Positions 13,071 to 19,743 of a DNA stretch of 34,730 bases are shown one piece after another. Position 1 is the stretch's first letter; every line of letters begins with the position of its first letter. A model generated the notes under the pieces. It was not told where the DNA came from, did no database searches, and worked only from the letters and a program-made list of their open reading frames with translations. Source of the stretch: Pseudomonadota bacterium (GTDB taxonomy: Bacteria; Pseudomonadota; Gammaproteobacteria; Burkholderiales; JAKAFK01); assembly GCA_021817985.1 (NCBI GenBank), contig JAKAFK010000040.1:1-34730 (forward strand), in the 5' to 3' direction. The position numbers and the translations under genes were made by a program.

Positions 13071-14195
13071 TCATCCGGCGTGGCACAGCAGCGTGTTGTC
13101 CCGCTCCCCGCTCTCGGCGATGCGGTCGAGACTCTCGAGGACGTGCTGGCTGGCCGTCTCCATGCGGCTGATGGCCTCGAAGGCCTCGTCCGGCCGACCG
13201 TCCCTGAAATGCTGCAGCGAAGCCATGCCGCTGTCGTGAAAGGCCTTGTGGGGCTCTTCCATCTCGCGGTAGCCGGGCAGGGCGGAGAAGCAGTCGTGCC
13301 CGTCGCCCTCGTAATACCACTGGCCGAGCCGGCACCGCTGGTGGTTCGCGAAGTCGCTTTCCGTTTTGCGCGACAGCCCCATGAACACCTTGTAGATCTC
13401 CAGCTTGTACACCAGATGATCGATCTTGGCCACTTCCACGAAACTGCGCAGGGCGGAGGCGGCGATCACGCCCTCCATGGCCTCCGACAGCTGGAGTACC
13501 CGCGTCATGCTGGAGGTCGTGTCGTGCCCCTTGCGGCTGAAGGTTTCGGTGTTGTCCGCCCATTCGTTCATATGGGTGCGCGTCTGCTCGGTCTGGGCCT
13601 GGATGGCCGTGACGAGATGGGAAATCTCGGCAGTGGCCTTGCGGGTGCGCTCGGCAAGCTTGCGGACCTCGTCGGCGACCACGGCGAAGCCGCGTCCCAT
13701 CTCGCCGGCGCGTGCCGCCTCGATGGCGGCATTGAGCGCGAGCAGGTTGGTCTGGTCCGCGATTTCCTTGATGAGCTGGACGATGCCCCCGATTTGTTCC
13801 GCCTGTGCGCTCAGTTGGCCGACCTTTTCCGCCATCTCGGAGGAATCGGCCGACATCGATTCCATGCGCCGCGAGAGCTGCTCCATCGCCGTCTGGCTTG
13901 CTCCGCTGGCCGTTGCGGCCTCCATCGCATGCTGCTTTTCGGCTTGCATGGACTCCGCGAGGCTCGCCTGCGAGCGCTGGATGTCCAGCAAGGAGGCGGA
14001 GAAGACCCCGAGGGTCTCGTACAAGCGGCGACAGTGGTCGACTTCCTGCCGCACGGCTGCGGCCGCCGCGAGGGCGGCGAGCTTGTCCTGCCGCTCCGCC
14101 GCGAGTCCGGCTTCCAGCGCCGCAACCCTGGCCTCCAGTTCGCGGGTGCGCCCTTCGTAGGCGAGGGCTTTTTCTTTCCATTGGGTCAAAAACAT
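13071..14195 (-). CDS. soluble methyl-accepting chemotaxis protein with C-terminal CZB domain
   Basis: This 374-residue receptor has no membrane segment and should be cytoplasmic. An N-terminal coiled coil (about 5-60) leads into the MCP signalling domain, whose conserved tip is at about 147-183 ([19 protein letters not shown], then [18 protein letters not shown]). The C-terminal CZB (chemoreceptor zinc-binding) domain spans about 250-365. Its predicted zinc ligands are His260 (KIDHLVYK), Cys288 ([11 protein letters not shown]), His316 and His320 (EEPHKAFH). Proteins of this layout, such as TlpD, sense oxidants through the zinc-bound cysteine or zinc itself. No C-terminal CheR/CheB-tether pentapeptide is present. 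GGAG precedes the start by seven bases. It lies 28 bases after the Aer-like receptor gene and is probably co-transcribed with it. Confidence 0.92.
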
Positions 14196-14223: not shown

Positions 14224-15852
14224 CTAGCGCGGCGTCCGCGCCAGCTTGAATTGATCCACCAGGCGCTTCAGGTCCCCGGCGGTCGCCGCAAGCCTTTCCG
14301 TTTCGCCCCATGCCTCCTGCGCGGATTGGGTGTTCCGGTCGATCAGGGTCGAGACCTGTTCCATATTGGCGGCCACTTGATGGCTTGCGGCGGCCTGGGC
14401 CGACGCCGCTTCGGCGATCCCCTGCGCCTTGCTCGCCACATCGACGCTGGCCTCGGTGATGCGGTCGAGGTCGGCCAGGGACTCTTTCATCAGGGCGGTG
14501 CCCGACTCGACCTCGTGCATGGCTTGTGCCATGGCGGCCACCGTCTGACCGGTGACGCTCTGGATTTCCGCGACGCGCGCCGAGATGTCGCCGGTGCTCA
14601 GCGTGGTCCGCTCGGCGAGCTTGCGGACCTCGTCGGCCACGACCGCGAAGCCGCGGCCCAGTTCGCCGGCGCGGGCCGCCTCGATCGCCGCGTTGAGCGC
14701 CAGGAGGTTGGTTTGATCGGCGATGTCCTTGATGGATTGGGTGATGGTGCCGATTTTCTCGATCGACTGGTTGAGTTTGCCGATGGTCGCGCTGGAGGCC
14801 TGCACGGCTTCCACCACGCGAGCGGTCGCGTCCTGGCTTCGCGTCATGCTGGCATTGCTGTCCTCCACCCGCTTCTGCGACTGCGTGGCGGACAACGCGG
14901 CGGCGCTCGCCCCTTCCGCGACTTCGCCGATCGACGCGCTGAACTGCTCGGTGGCGGCGGCGACCGATTGCACGCGGCCGCGCTGCTCGTGCGACTGCTC
15001 GACCACGTTCTTCATCTCGCCTTCGAGCACGGCGCACTTGCTGTCGATCGCCCGGGCCGCTTCCTTGATTTCGTCCAGCATGACCGTGAGGTTGGCCTGC
15101 ATCGCCGCCAAGCCGTTCAACAACTGGCCCTCCTCGTTGCGGCCGCCGATGTCGATGTCGTCGGTCAGAATGCCTTGGGCGATGCGGTCGAGGTGCCCCA
15201 GGGCGACATCGAGCTTGCCCATGACGGTGCGCGCCAGGAGGTAGAACGCGCCAAACGTGACGGAGATCCAAGAGAAGGCGAAGGCGCCGAGCTGCCCGAC
15301 CTCTCTCCAGGACAGGTTCAGAGCGGGCTTGCTTGCCGCCAGGGCGAGCGCCATCCCGATATACAGCGCAGACAGGACCGCGAACATCCGCGTGCGGATG
15401 GAAAGTCCGCGCCAGCTCAAGCGCGATGCCGTCGGCAAGGCATGTCCCGCATTGAGGCGCGCGTAAAGGGCTTCCGCCTCCTTGATGCTCTCTCGCGAGG
15501 GTTCCGAGCGCACCGACAGGTATCCGGTCGTCCGGCCCTCCTGGCGTATCGGGACGATCATCGCGGCGACCCAGTAATGGTCGCCGCCCTTCGCCCGGTT
15601 CTTGACGATGCCGCGCCACGGATGCCCCGCCTTGACGGTGTCCCACAGGTTCTGGAACGCCGCCGCCGGCATGTCCGGGTGGCGGATGATGTTGTGGTTC
15701 TTGCCGATCAGCTCCTCGCGCGAGAACTCCGCCAGTTCGATGAACGTGTCGTTGGCATAGGTGATGATGCCCTTGAGGTCGGTCTTCGAGACCAGGTATC
15801 GCCCTTTGGGATAGGGCTTTTCGTTCTGCGTCACTGGAAGGTTGATTTTCAT
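14224..15852 (-). CDS. Aer-like methyl-accepting chemotaxis protein with N-terminal PAS domain
   Basis: The 542 residues have the layout of the aerotaxis receptor Aer. A PAS domain occupies about 8-118, with [49 protein letters not shown] and [12 protein letters not shown], the blocks that in Aer surround the FAD. Two hydrophobic segments follow (about 155-172 and 186-208) with a very short loop, then a HAMP-like linker (210-262) and the MCP signalling domain with its tip at 379-416. It should signal cellular redox or oxygen state to CheA. The start at 15852 is chosen because the family begins a few residues before PVTQ; an in-frame ATG at 15975 would add 41 Pro/Ala/Ser-rich residues unlike the family. 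No strong ribosome binding site is visible, only GGGAAC. A riboswitch-like element lies upstream. Confidence 0.92.
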
Positions 15853-15895: not shown

Positions 15896-15982
15896 CTAGC
15901 GGGGCCGCTGCGGAGGCGGAATGGAACAGGGAAAGAAGCCGGCGCGGGCGGGCGGGAGGAGCTCGGTGCGGGCATTGTTCAT
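15896..15982 (-). CDS. possible 28-codon leader ORF between riboswitch and chemoreceptor gene
   Basis: An ATG at 15982 preceded by TTGAGGCG nine bases upstream opens a short frame ([20 protein letters not shown] and eight more residues) that ends at 15896, 43 bases before the receptor start. It is rich in Pro and Arg. It has a better ribosome binding site than the receptor gene itself, so it might couple translation to the riboswitch, but nothing else shows that it is expressed. Confidence 0.2.
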
Positions 15983-16024: not shown

Positions 16025-16120
16025 CCGGGCAATCCCGCCGTCATGGGCATCGAGCCTTTAGACCGGGACTTTGCGCCTTCGCCTTTCGAACGAAGTGACC
16101 TTTATCGGGTGTGTGCCCGG
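16025..16120 (-). ncRNA. candidate c-di-GMP-I (GEMM) riboswitch in the chemoreceptor leader
   Basis: On the minus strand the element has, in order: closing stem CCGGGC (16120-16115) with GCCCGG (16030-16025); a hairpin CTTCG/CGAAG (16095-16091, 16081-16077) capped by GAAA (16087-16084); the core CGCAAAG (16075-16069), which in this class contacts c-di-GMP; stem CCCG/CGGG (16067-16064, 16037-16034); and a tetraloop-receptor-like pair, TCTAAA (16062-16057) and CATGA (16045-16041), around a GGC/GCC hairpin. The 3' end GGCGGGATTGCC matches the usual GCCGGGTTRCC-type segment. The 5' side of the first hairpin (AAAGGTCA in place of AGGGCAAA) and the longer joint after the closing stem depart from the consensus. 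Such riboswitches are known upstream of chemotaxis and motility genes. A covariance-model search would settle it. It ends 172 bases before the Aer-like start. Confidence 0.75.
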
Positions 16121-16144
16121 CAGGAGAACAAGGCCCCCTGCCGG
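16117..16144 (-). promoter_or_regulatory. hairpin that overlaps the riboswitch closing stem
   Basis: CCGGCAGG (minus strand 16144-16137) and CCTGCCGG (16124-16117) form a perfect 8-bp stem with a 12-base loop. Its 3' arm shares bases 16117-16120 with the 5' arm of the riboswitch closing stem, so the two cannot form together. It could be part of the switch, or a weak terminator after polA; no T-run follows. Confidence 0.4.
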
Positions 16145-16168: not shown

Positions 16169-16196
16169 CCTATATTAACTCGCGTTGCGTGCGCAA
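16169..16196 (-). promoter_or_regulatory. possible promoter of the chemoreceptor leader
   Basis: In the only AT-rich patch of the 15853-16226 gap the minus strand reads TTGCGC (16191-16196), 16 bases, then TATAGG (16169-16174). It would start transcription about 40 bases before the riboswitch. Both boxes are weak matches to sigma70, and I do not see the TAAA/GCCGATAA pair of a flagellar sigma28 promoter. Besides this patch, the gap holds the riboswitch, the overlapping hairpin and the short leader ORF. Confidence 0.3.
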
Positions 16197-16226: not shown

Positions 16227-18992
16227 TCAATGGGCGCTTTCCCAGTTGGGCCCCACCCCCATTTCGGCAAGAAGCGGCACCTTGAGGGCGGCCACCCCAC
16301 ACATGAGGGCGGGCAGGCGTTCCTTGATGCGGCCGAGCTCCTCGTCGGGGACTTCGAGCACGAGTTCGTCGTGCACCTGCAGGATGAGGCGGCTGGCGGA
16401 TTTCTCCTGCTCCAGCCAGCCTTGCACGCTGATCATGGCGAGCTTGATGAGGTCGGCGGCCGTGCCCTGCATCGGTCCGTTGATGGCCGCCCGCTCGGCC
16501 GCCTGGCGGCGCGGCCCGCTGCCGCCGTTGATTTCGGGCAGCCAGAGCCTGCGCCCGAACACGGTTTCCACGTACCCCTGGGCGCGCGCCGCCTCGCGCG
16601 TGTGCCGCATGTATGCCGCCACGCCGGGGTAGCGCGCGAAATAGCGGTCGATATACTGCTGCGCGGCCGCGCGATCGAGCCCGAGCTGTGAGGCGAGGCC
16701 GAACGCCGACATGCCGTAGATGAGGCCGAAGTTGATGACCTTGGCGACGCGCCGCTGGTCGGGGCTCACGGCCTCGGGCGCGATTCCGAAGATCTCCCCG
16801 GCAGTGGCCCGGTGCACGTCCTGGTTTTCGGCAAAGGCGCGGGTGAGCCCGGGGTCTTGCGACAGGTGGGCCATGATGCGCAGCTCGATCTGGGAATAGT
16901 CTGCCGAAACCAGGTGGTGTCCCGGGGGCGCGATGAAGGCCTCCCGGATGCGGCGGCCCTCGGGGGTCCTCGCCGGGATGTTCTGGAGATTGGGATCGGA
17001 ACTGGCGAGCCGGCCGGTGACTGCCGTGGCCTGGCTGTAATGGGTATGGATGCGGCCTGTCGACGGGTCGACCATGGTCGGAAGCCGGTCGAGGTAGGTG
17101 GACTTGAGCTTGGCGAGCGCGCGATACTCGAGCAGGAGCTTCGGAAAGGGGTAATCGAGGGCGAGCTGCGCGAGCACCTCCTCGTCGGTGGAGGCGGCGC
17201 CGCCGGGCGTCTTCTTGATCACCGGCAGCCCCATTCGGGTGAACAGGATTTCCTGCAGCTGCTTGGGTGAATTGAGGTTGCACGGCTGGCCGACCAGCCG
17301 GTAGCAGTCCTGTTCCAGGGCGGTGATCTTGAGCCCGAGTTCGTGAGCCTGCGCGCGCAGGCGCCCGACGTCCACCAGCACGCCGTTGCGCTCCATGGTG
17401 AGCAGCACCGTCGCCAAGGGCACTTCGATGTGCTCGTAGACGAAGTCCAGCGCGTGCGACTCCCGGATCCGGGGGAACAGCGCCTGATGCAGCTTGAGCG
17501 TGACATCCGCATCCTCGGCGGCATAATGGGTGGCGGTATCGATGGCCACCTGGTCGAAGCCGATGCTGTTGGCGCCCTTTCCGGTGACCTCGGCGTAGGT
17601 GGTCGTCCTCAGCCCCAGGTGGCGCAGCGCCAGCGTGTCCATGTCGTGCTGGCGGTGGGATTCGAGCACATAGGATTCGAGCAGCGTATCGTGACGGATG
17701 CCTGCCAGGCGGATGCCGTGGTTGGCGAGGATGTGGGCGTCGAACTTGATGTTGTGGCCCACCTTGGGGAGGCTCGGGTCTTCCAGGCAGGGCTTCAATT
17801 CGGCGAGCACCCGTTCGAGCGGAAGTTGTGCCGGCGCGCCCGCGTAACGATGGCCGACCGGGATGTAGAACGCCGAATCGGGTTCGACCGCGAAGGAGAG
17901 CCCGACCAGGCGGGCGTTCATGGGGTCGAGCCCGGTGGTTTCGGTGTCGAGCGACACCAGGGGGGCGGCCGCGAGGCGCGCGCCCAAAGCGCCCAGCGCG
18001 GCCTCGTCCAGGATGACGGCATAGGTGCTGGCGAGCGCGGGCGGGTGCACCAGAGCCTGGCCCGCCGCGCCGCCGATTTCGCGGGCCCAACTCTCGAATT
18101 CGAACCGTTCGAACAGGGGCAGGAGCCTCTCGCGGTCGGCCGGCCGCGGGACCAGATCCTCGAGGCCCACCTGCAGGTCGACGTCTGTTTTCACGGTGAG
18201 GAGACTGCGCGCGAGGGGCAGGAACGCGGCCGCCTGGCGCAGGTTCAGGCCGATCGCGCCGGAGACCTCGTGCGCGTGCGCCACGAGATTGTCGAGGTTC
18301 CGGTAGGTCGCGAGGAGCTTGGCGGCGGTTTTCGGGCCGACCTTCTCGACGCCGGGCACGTTGTCGGCGGCATCGCCCACGAGCGCCAGATAATCGACGA
18401 TGCGCTCGGGCGCGACACCGAACTTCGCCGCCACGCCCGCTTCGTCGAGCTCTTCGTTGGACATCGTGTTCACGAGCCGGGTGGCCGGTCCCACGAGCTG
18501 GGCCAGGTCCTTGTCGCCCGTCGACACGAGGGTGGCGACCCCGGCGCGCTCCGCCGCCCGGGCGAGGGTCCCGATCACGTCGTCGGCCTCGACGCCCTCG
18601 ACCACCAGAAGGGGCCAGCCCAGCGCGGCGATCGCGGCCTTCAGCGGCTCGATCTGGGCGGCCAGCGCCTCCGGCATGGGCGGGCGGTGGGCCTTGTAGG
18701 GGGGGTACAAGTCGTCGCGGAAGGTCCTGCCCGGGGCGTCGAATACGCAGGCCCGGTAATCGGCGCTATAATCTCGGGTAAGCCGGCGGAGCATGTTGAT
18801 GACCCCGTAGATCGCCCCGGTCGGTTCATTGCGGCGCGTGCGCAGATCGGGAAGCGCGTGGAAGGCCCGGTAGAGGTAGGAAGACCCGTCGACCAGCAAG
18901 AGCCGTTTGGGGCGCCCGCCTTCCGGGGCGTCGGGCATCGGTGGGGCGTCCGGCGCGGTCCCGCGCGAGGAGCTGCGAGGTTTGTCGTCCAT
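16227..18992 (-). CDS. polA: DNA polymerase I PolA
   Basis: PolA fills gaps and removes RNA primers in Okazaki-fragment maturation and repair. About 921 residues, with three active domains. The 5'-nuclease (about 28-300) has LLLVDGSSYLYRAFHALPD and EGVEADDVIG. The proofreading exonuclease (about 320-510) keeps its acidic residues in SLDTETTGLDP, GHNIKFDAHIL and YAAEDADVTLKLH, so it looks functional. The polymerase domain has motif A (SADYSQIELRIMAHLS), motif B (RRVAKVINFGLIYGMSAFGL) and motif C with His-Asp-Glu at 874-876. The start at 18992 leaves only 19 bases to the divergent LOG-family start; an ATG at 18938 is an alternative, and the frame is open to 19070. No strong ribosome binding site is visible for any of them. 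Confidence 0.97.
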   Translation of the reverse strand: MDDKPRSSSRGTAPDAPPMPDAPEGGRPKRLLLVDGSSYLYRAFHALPDLRTRRNEPTGAIYGVINMLRRLTRDYSADYRACVFDAPGRTFRDDLYPPYKAHRPPMPEALAAQIEPLKAAIAALGWPLLVVEGVEADDVIGTLARAAERAGVATLVSTGDKDLAQLVGPATRLVNTMSNEELDEAGVAAKFGVAPERIVDYLALVGDAADNVPGVEKVGPKTAAKLLATYRNLDNLVAHAHEVSGAIGLNLRQAAAFLPLARSLLTVKTDVDLQVGLEDLVPRPADRERLLPLFERFEFESWAREIGGAAGQALVHPPALASTYAVILDEAALGALGARLAAAPLVSLDTETTGLDPMNARLVGLSFAVEPDSAFYIPVGHRYAGAPAQLPLERVLAELKPCLEDPSLPKVGHNIKFDAHILANHGIRLAGIRHDTLLESYVLESHRQHDMDTLALRHLGLRTTTYAEVTGKGANSIGFDQVAIDTATHYAAEDADVTLKLHQALFPRIRESHALDFVYEHIEVPLATVLLTMERNGVLVDVGRLRAQAHELGLKITALEQDCYRLVGQPCNLNSPKQLQEILFTRMGLPVIKKTPGGAASTDEEVLAQLALDYPFPKLLLEYRALAKLKSTYLDRLPTMVDPSTGRIHTHYSQATAVTGRLASSDPNLQNIPARTPEGRRIREAFIAPPGHHLVSADYSQIELRIMAHLSQDPGLTRAFAENQDVHRATAGEIFGIAPEAVSPDQRRVAKVINFGLIYGMSAFGLASQLGLDRAAAQQYIDRYFARYPGVAAYMRHTREAARAQGYVETVFGRRLWLPEINGGSGPRRQAAERAAINGPMQGTAADLIKLAMISVQGWLEQEKSASRLILQVHDELVLEVPDEELGRIKERLPALMCGVAALKVPLLAEMGVGPNWESAH

Positions 18993-19011
18993 CCAGTCAG
19001 GTTTCCAAACA

Positions 19012-19743
19012 ATGAGTGCCTTTGAGAAATTGCCCAAGCTCGTCGACCCGAATGCGATCGCCCGATCCACCTATTCCGCGCGCGAATCCTGGCGCGTGTT
19101 CGAGATTATGGCAGAATTCGTCGAGGCGACGGAGCGCCTCAATGCCATACAGCCGGCGGTCAGCATCTTCGGAAGCGCCCGTACGCCCGCGGACCATCCC
19201 TATTACATGCTGACCGAGCAGATTGCGCGCCAGCTTTCCGACGCCGGCTTCAGCGTGATTTCCGGCGGCGGGCCGGGCATCATGGAGGCCGCCAACAAGG
19301 GTGCCTATTTCGGCAGGTCGCCCAGCATCGGACTCAATATCCAGCTGCCGCACGAGCAGCATGCCAATCCCTACCAGGACATCAGCCAGACCTTCCGCCA
19401 TTTCTTCGCGCGCAAGGTCATGTTCGTGAAGTTCGCCAGCGCCTATGTGGTGATGCCCGGCGGCTTCGGCACCATGGACGAGATCATGGAATGCCTGACC
19501 CTGGTGCAGACCGGCAAGACGCGCACCATCCCCATCATCCTGGTCCATGAGCCGTTCTGGGGGGGGCTCATCGGCTGGTTCAAGAACACCTTGGTCGAGC
19601 AAGGCATGATCGACCAGCGGGACCTCGATCTCATCAAGGTCATCAACGAGCCGCGGGCCGTGGTGGACGCGATCTTCAACCACTACGAGACCCGCGGCTT
19701 CGAGCCCTCGGTGGAGGAACGCGAAATTCAGCTCAACTTGTAA
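19012..19743 (+). CDS. LOG-family (TIGR00730) Rossmann-fold protein
   Basis: The 243-residue protein carries both signatures of the lysine-decarboxylase-like LOG family: SGGGPGIMEAANKGA (84-98) and PGGFGTMDE (149-157). LOG enzymes cleave the N-glycosidic bond of nucleoside 5'-monophosphates, including cytokinin precursors; many bacterial members are thought to act in nucleotide salvage or turnover. It is not a lysine decarboxylase despite older annotations. It is longer at both ends than minimal 190-residue LOG proteins. The start at 19012 is chosen for the N-terminus and a CAGG upstream; the open frame continues to 18907 inside polA. It reads away from polA and precedes the DUF2782 gene, which has its own likely promoter. 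Confidence 0.88.
   Translation: MSAFEKLPKLVDPNAIARSTYSARESWRVFEIMAEFVEATERLNAIQPAVSIFGSARTPADHPYYMLTEQIARQLSDAGFSVISGGGPGIMEAANKGAYFGRSPSIGLNIQLPHEQHANPYQDISQTFRHFFARKVMFVKFASAYVVMPGGFGTMDEIMECLTLVQTGKTRTIPIILVHEPFWGGLIGWFKNTLVEQGMIDQRDLDLIKVINEPRAVVDAIFNHYETRGFEPSVEEREIQLNL

Follow-up and report, generated by a model that had tools for sequence, protein, structure and literature searches.

Most descriptions of how c-di-GMP connects to taxis concern the flagellar motor or c-di-GMP that is bound by proteins. Cbp1 of Azorhizobium is reported to be a chemoreceptor with a c-di-GMP-binding PilZ domain (PMC6454048). A connection through RNA is described for the Bacillus cereus group, in which the Bc1 c-di-GMP-I riboswitch is found before mcpE and other MCP genes and is reported to turn transcription on (PMC11218506). 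Here, we describe a c-di-GMP-I aptamer on the minus strand of a 34,730-nucleotide stretch of DNA from a Pseudomonadota bacterium (contig JAKAFK010000040.1 of assembly GCA_021817985.1; the whole stretch is hereafter the window). We consider it likely, with a probability of roughly 0.85, that this element is a riboswitch located in the 5' leader of a chemoreceptor unit of two genes, one for an Aer-like PAS receptor and one for a CZB receptor, and that it controls the unit.

By covariance-model, covariation and conservation tests, the element at positions 16025-16110 is a c-di-GMP-I aptamer. A cmscan of the entire window against Rfam 15 (4227 families), with the gathering threshold applied, returned two matches, a tRNA (89-17) and RF01051, the c-di-GMP-I (GEMM) family. 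The latter match lies at 16110-16025 on the minus strand, spans model positions 1-87 of 87, is the best match of its clan, and scores 48.3 bits against a gathering score of 35 (E 1.2e-6). An initial annotation, made from the letters of the window alone, had proposed the element as a candidate of the GEMM class and had named a covariance-model search as the check; that search returned the family at full length and with significance. A model built from aptamers of the order to which the source organism belongs (R1) gives the window aptamer 55.4 bits, and a model of the subclass described below (R2) gives 93.3 bits, with the window sequence among the ten used to build it. The aptamer is no more stable in minimum free energy than its shuffles (z -0.44), and neither is the leader as a whole, and the identification therefore relies on the covariance model, on covariation and on synteny, not on folding energy. 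No RF01051 match was found in 14 control genomes by a search identical to that of the source genome.

The motifs first read by eye, namely a GAAA loop, a CGCAAAG core, a receptor-like pair CCCGG-TCTAAA...CATGA and GGCGGGATTGCC, are each found in the window sequence, and the 172-base spacing holds between the final base of the aptamer (16025) and the receptor ATG at 15852. The closing stem, P1, had been put at 6 bp and is in fact four pairs, formed by CACC (16111-16108) with the 3' strand GGUG (16026-16023, minus strand), which is unchanged in the sister genome; beyond these four pairs lie a C-C mismatch and one further possible pair. The first hairpin (16073-16099, minus strand) carries the GAAA loop and an altered internal loop, with CAC facing GGC where AAA facing GAC is usual. 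The junction at 16066-16067 on the same strand is without one nucleotide, that of model position 44, which we take to be U53 of Vc2. Likewise, the presumed equivalents of Vc2 G20, C44, A47, G83 and C92 are located at 16100, 16075, 16072, 16038 and 16029.

The receptor that follows the aptamer (14224-15852, minus strand; 542 aa) is predicted to be of the Aer type, with a PAS domain and then an MCP signalling domain by Pfam, and the best PDB sequence matches of its PAS part are aerotaxis receptors (8dik_A, E 2.3e-38; 31cj_A, E 5.2e-37). Starting 28 bases past its stop is a second gene of 374 aa (13071-14195, minus strand), a predicted CZB chemoreceptor in which MCPsignal and CZB both exceed the Pfam cut-off (for CZB, 58.1 bits against 29.4); compared with PDB sequences, its C-terminal part (13071-13435) matched two designed proteins (E 1e-4) and no CZB structure. 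The Aer-like and CZB pair that the initial annotation proposed as the target is thus supported by Pfam and PDB sequence matches, and by an arrangement that recurs outside the genus. A longer, 583-aa receptor starting at ATG 15975 was rejected, as substitutions in the added region fall mainly at codon position 2 and as 24 aligned receptors, window and sister included, all start at one common place. CZB domains have been proposed as redox and aerotaxis sensors in a preprint (PMC13370339), so that pairing with an Aer-like receptor makes sense. Downstream of the receptor pair is a dihydrouridine synthase gene (Pfam), and the upstream neighbor on the strand of the aptamer is polA (16227-19070, minus strand; ORF and Pfam, with a putative start codon).

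The source genome (3.97 Mb in 184 contigs) has 45 GGDEF matches, 14 MCPsignal matches in 13 open frames and 2 flagellin matches, and messenger, receptors and flagella are therefore all predicted to be present. Two more Aer-like receptors are encoded on contigs that carry no aptamer (C90 and C158). RF01051 has four matches above the cut-off in this genome. Two of the others, L001 (C95:9995-10082) and L003 (C41:978-1071), are followed by ORFs that match sigma-70 region 2 and DUF6531, respectively. The last, L002 (C182:34500-34605), and L005 of the sister genome (C92:26623-26728) are c-di-GMP-I-like aptamers in which A takes the place of the G equivalent to Vc2 G20, as in cGAMP-type GEMM-Ib switches; each comes after a DUF2459 gene (by Pfam on that of the sister) and is followed by hairpins and a convergent gene, and no gene stands out as the target.

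Among the genomes searched, the family of the source organism includes one other, the sister G001, which has an aptamer of 49.0 bits (RF01051) at the equivalent location. The aptamer stretch is 93.5% identical between the two, compared with 78.6% for the intergenic DNA upstream and 82-87% for the leader downstream. No compensatory change was found when the window and sister leaders were compared alone, because the two sequences are too alike.

A broader view of the class comes from 399 genomes of the order, evenly drawn from a larger group, of which 149 have RF01051 matches. In an alignment of 98 matches from 95 sources, 25 of which were used to build R1, model positions 12, 35-39, 74 and 83 are invariant in all 98 aptamers, that of the window included, and position 11 is G in 93 and A in four (L002, L005, L096 and L076); lower-scoring aptamers of the order vary more at core positions. 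Two-sided changes occur in 18 of the 22 pairs, a number equalled by none of 500 shuffles, although fitting the alignment to the structure, as was done here, favors such a result. The compensatory changes in homologous leaders for which the initial annotation had proposed to look are therefore present. In this order, the class does not usually target chemoreceptors: the longest ORF downstream matched DUF1631 at 12 and MCPsignal at none of the 30 best-scoring loci outside the genus (a survey of best matches, not a random sample, with ORFs cut at 1.5-kb flanks), and of the 98 aligned aptamers two are followed by an MCP tip motif, those of the window and the sister. DUF1631 is the commonest match of the longest downstream ORF among these 30 loci, L009-L038 (L009 and 11 others). 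Elsewhere in the order, an ordinary c-di-GMP-I aptamer (L088, G195:C23) lies ahead of genes for CheW and for a TarH-type receptor, and thus further chemotaxis genes of the order are also linked to the class. Two aptamers follow each other in the same orientation, about 150-180 bases apart, at L028/L154 (G131:C62), L015 (G358:C60) and L019 (G145:C1).

When the first 250 residues of the receptor were searched in the 399 genomes of the order, matches were found in 291. For the best 20 receptor loci, model R1 places an aptamer upstream of 10 and none upstream of the other 10; 18 of the 20 lie outside the genus, and seven of these pass the Rfam gathering score. Model R2 was built from ten linked aptamers, and its matches were added to the linked set. 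Among the receptor and R2 matches listed, at least 13 of the 399 genomes have an aptamer that precedes a co-oriented Aer-like receptor gene by 87-506 bases, a lower bound that spans five families (G000, G001, G181, G079, G121, G186, G035, G021, G144, G015, G330, G160 and G123). Ten of the 13 linked receptors have 688-698 residues, longer than the 542 aa of the window receptor, and align in two blocks. A CZB receptor gene is next in eight cases (window, sister, L144-L148 and L151); Pfam confirms the domain in L144, L148 and L146 and gives L151 29.2 bits against the cut-off of 29.4 on a fetched stretch that was cut, and the gene of L147 was read only up to the contig end. For L143, the contig ends before any downstream gene, and within the fetched stretches no CZB match was found past the receptors of L140, L141, L149 and L150, nor beside the aptamer-less orthologues of G153 and G105. 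The tie between the aptamer and the Aer-like plus CZB receptor unit thus recurs across families, and an MCP tip motif lies downstream of all 13 linked aptamers compared with none of 45 mostly low-scoring others. In G144, dus and polA flank the switch and receptor as they do in the window, with the arrangement inverted. Two linked relatives fall under the Rfam gathering score (L146/L116, at 32 bits, and L140, which is not reported), and the general Rfam model appears to miss the weakest members. A tree of 24 PAS domains, in which 14 of 21 inner branches are open, needs 6 changes of the switch, a number as low in 41 of 500 shuffles, and carries little information on whether the switch was gained once.

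The recurrence of this arrangement bears on a different reading of the locus, in which the element is part of the polA transcript, at its 3' end, or has a small uORF as its sole target, and does not act on the receptors. In favor of this reading, polA precedes the aptamer in the same orientation in both window and sister, and a 28-codon ORF comes after the aptamer. At the 11 linked loci outside the genus, however, the roughly 1.0-2.4 kb fetched upstream of the aptamer gave no polA match; the sole polA match at these loci, at L149, is downstream of the receptor and on the opposite strand, and the receptor is the one partner common to all 13 linked aptamers. Attribution of the element to polA or to the uORF is therefore highly improbable.

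The 5' half of the first hairpin, which the initial annotation had described as deviating from the consensus, does deviate, and it does so in a manner common to a subclass of receptor-linked aptamers. The internal loop of the 13 linked aptamers reads CAC in five (window, L140, L144, L145 and L146), UAC in two, AAC, AAU, UUA, CAA and AUA in one each, and AAA in L141, compared with AAA in 86 of the 96 others of the first alignment; in the CAC loop, a C-G pair is possible in place of the A facing G. Model position 44, which is unpaired in the long helix, is present in L141 and absent from the other 12 linked aptamers, and by alignment it is absent from 4 of 141 other aptamers of the order (L142, L186, L201 and, doubtfully, L202). 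The Fisher value for this loss is 1e-13, which ignores kinship and uneven sampling, and the 141 are mostly best-scoring matches, together with 45 mostly low-scoring ones from 39 chosen genomes. A count made without alignment gives broadly the same picture: the distance from the core GCAAA to YCTA is 7 bases in 11 of 12 readable linked aptamers, and among 85 readable others it is 8 bases in 79, 9 bases in one and 7 bases in five (L142, L186, L201, L062 and L089), the pattern having failed to read 57 of 154 aptamers in all. For L062 and L089, the aligner moves the gap elsewhere. The subclass was accordingly taken to have 15 members, consisting of the 12 linked aptamers plus L142, L186 and L201.

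A second change concerns a bulge that is able to shift by one pair. The pair 47-75 is possible in 136 of the 141 others compared with 4 of the 15 subclass members, 11 of which allow the pair 47-73. The window and its sister retain the usual 47-75 pair and thus bear only part of the subclass signature, and L145 is without the G at position 74 that is otherwise constant. Over the 15 subclass aptamers, in an alignment that was likewise fitted to the structure, two-sided changes occur in 13 of the 22 pairs, with none of 500 shuffles as high.

These observations also speak to whether the aptamer could be a degenerating remnant that has lost its switching function. Its family-model score is low, at 48.3 bits compared with 64.7-88.2 among the order matches listed, and the window leader has no clear expression platform. 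Yet the aptamer is better conserved than its flanks between window and sister, much of the low score stems from features common to five families (as reflected in the 93.3 bits under R2, of whose ten sequences the window is one), and paired positions covary inside the subclass. Decay is thus a very unlikely account of the element, and the reading as a functional c-di-GMP-I riboswitch is preferred.

The three subclass members that are not linked to chemoreceptors (L142, L186 and L201) precede MASE1-PAS-GGDEF, ODP-family and dCache-PAS proteins. In L186 (G035:C3:38463-38549), an ODP-family gene follows the aptamer about 0.5 kb on; ODP proteins are oxygen sensors in chemotaxis, and L186 would thus fit a redox theme. 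It is conceivable, although we put this forward tentatively and with more doubt than confidence, that the linked aptamers are a separate c-di-GMP-I subtype, in which the bulge nucleotide is lost, the A-rich loop rebuilt and the A-G bulge mostly shifted, that this subtype is tuned to another concentration or to a related nucleotide, and that it defines an oxygen/redox regulon of Aer-like, CZB, ODP-family and MASE1-PAS-GGDEF proteins. If so, c-di-GMP would decide whether the cell can smell redox gradients.

With respect to the ligand, the window keeps the equivalents of G20, C44, A47, G83 and C92 as well as the GNRA loop and its receptor. The five positions are presumably those of ligand contact or docking in Vc2, and the changes that mark the subclass fall elsewhere. 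Because these presumed contact positions are kept, c-di-GMP is the predicted ligand of the window aptamer, and the altered ligand raised in the initial annotation is not favored. An alternative is that the subclass recognizes a different molecule, for example 3',3'-cGAMP or a linear dinucleotide, or that its affinity for c-di-GMP is changed and sets another threshold. Deviations near the binding core common to 12 of the 13 receptor-linked aptamers would agree with this alternative, as would the A at the G20 position in another aptamer of the same genome, but in the window all five equivalents are retained and the altered positions are not the presumed ligand contacts, and this alternative is unlikely; the affinity may nevertheless be changed. 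One report equates position 11 of the Cd1 aptamer with Vc2 G20 and describes the G20 position as helping the aptamer to discriminate between cyclic dinucleotides (PMC9262584).

Under the preferred reading, c-di-GMP made by the many GGDEF enzymes of the cell would bind the aptamer, and the ligand-bound aptamer would alter whether the transcript gets completed or translated, such that the amount of redox-sensing receptor would track the motile-to-sessile state. We infer that c-di-GMP sets receptor synthesis, through cis-regulation of both genes and probably at the level of transcription. Directly upstream of the aptamer is a perfect 8-bp hairpin, CCGGCAGG...CCTGCCGG (16117-16144, minus strand), with the same stem and a changed loop in the sister. 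A candidate promoter, TTGCGC-16-TATAGG (16169-16196, minus strand), was picked by eye and is kept in the sister; a consensus scan found no promoter-like site, and the candidate is thus weak. Downstream, a C-rich, G-poor stretch (15901-15978, minus strand; 41 C and 16 G of 78) reaches a level seen in 0.3% (window) and 0.6% (sister) of 1380 background segments, which fits a candidate Rho loading site in this genus; in the other eleven linked leaders the same measure ranges from 1.4% to 90%, and most are unremarkable. A candidate uORF of 28 aa (15896-15982, minus strand) ends at the same stop in the sister, with substitutions distributed 3/1/6 by codon position, a pattern that is no more than suggestive. 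The third-position bias over 15985-15914 (6 of 10 substitutions between window and sister) continues beyond the uORF stop, and the uORF is therefore given no weight.

Several candidate platforms were rejected for the window leader. The two terminator-like sites returned by a scan are both on the plus strand, with none on the minus strand; the best hairpin from our own scan is weak, equalled by 6 of 30 shuffles, and has no equivalent in the sister; and folds of the free and bound states gave no consistent difference in sequestration of the start site in either genome. Among relatives, hairpins with T-runs that no more than 2 of 30 shuffles equal occur soon after the aptamer in 5 of the 13 linked leaders (equalled by none of 30 shuffles for L149, L151 and L146, and by two for L140 and L143), and the best hairpins of L141, L144, L145, L147, L148 and L150 are equalled by 6 to 21 of 30. 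A series of co-transcriptional minimum free energy folds gave no clear rule for deriving the sign of regulation from the hairpins of these relatives. By analogy with Bc1, which is reported to switch on transcription before Bacillus chemoreceptor genes, we lean slightly towards activation.

If the predicted role of the element holds, the choice of redox sensors that the cell makes would depend on lifestyle, through a conserved RNA switch placed ahead of Aer-like and CZB receptors. Such a switch would provide a testable regulon in one order, across five of its families, as well as a structural subtype suited to testing what the U53 and A-G bulges contribute to the recognition of c-di-GMP. A full-text search, covering mostly open literature through titles and abstract openings, found no report of a c-di-GMP riboswitch before Aer-like or CZB receptors. 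The riboswitch kind is known, as is chemoreceptor control by c-di-GMP-I in Bacillus; as far as the search reaches, what seems new is the Aer-like/CZB target in this order, together with the structural subclass.

Compared to the c-di-GMP-I class (GEMM, RF01051), the window aptamer has the same helices, GAAA tetraloop, receptor-like loop and invariant core positions, and differs in being without the unpaired position 44, in having CAC for AAA, and in having G-U for the adjacent C-G pair. Natural variants of the class exist in c-di-GMP-I-GGC (RF03167) and the cGAMP-binding GEMM-Ib, and RF01051 remains the best clan match of the window. GEMM-Ib presumably has A at the position of Vc2 G20; unlike GEMM-Ib, the window and its sister have G at model position 11. 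With Bc1, the locus shares a c-di-GMP-I aptamer that leads chemoreceptor genes, but it belongs to another phylum and precedes other receptors, and the platform of Bc1 is described as having two intrinsic terminators, compared with none in the window. Cbp1, as reported, resembles the locus in that c-di-GMP provides input to a chemoreceptor; there, however, the messenger binds the protein, whereas control in the window is predicted to be exerted on receptor synthesis, by way of RNA.
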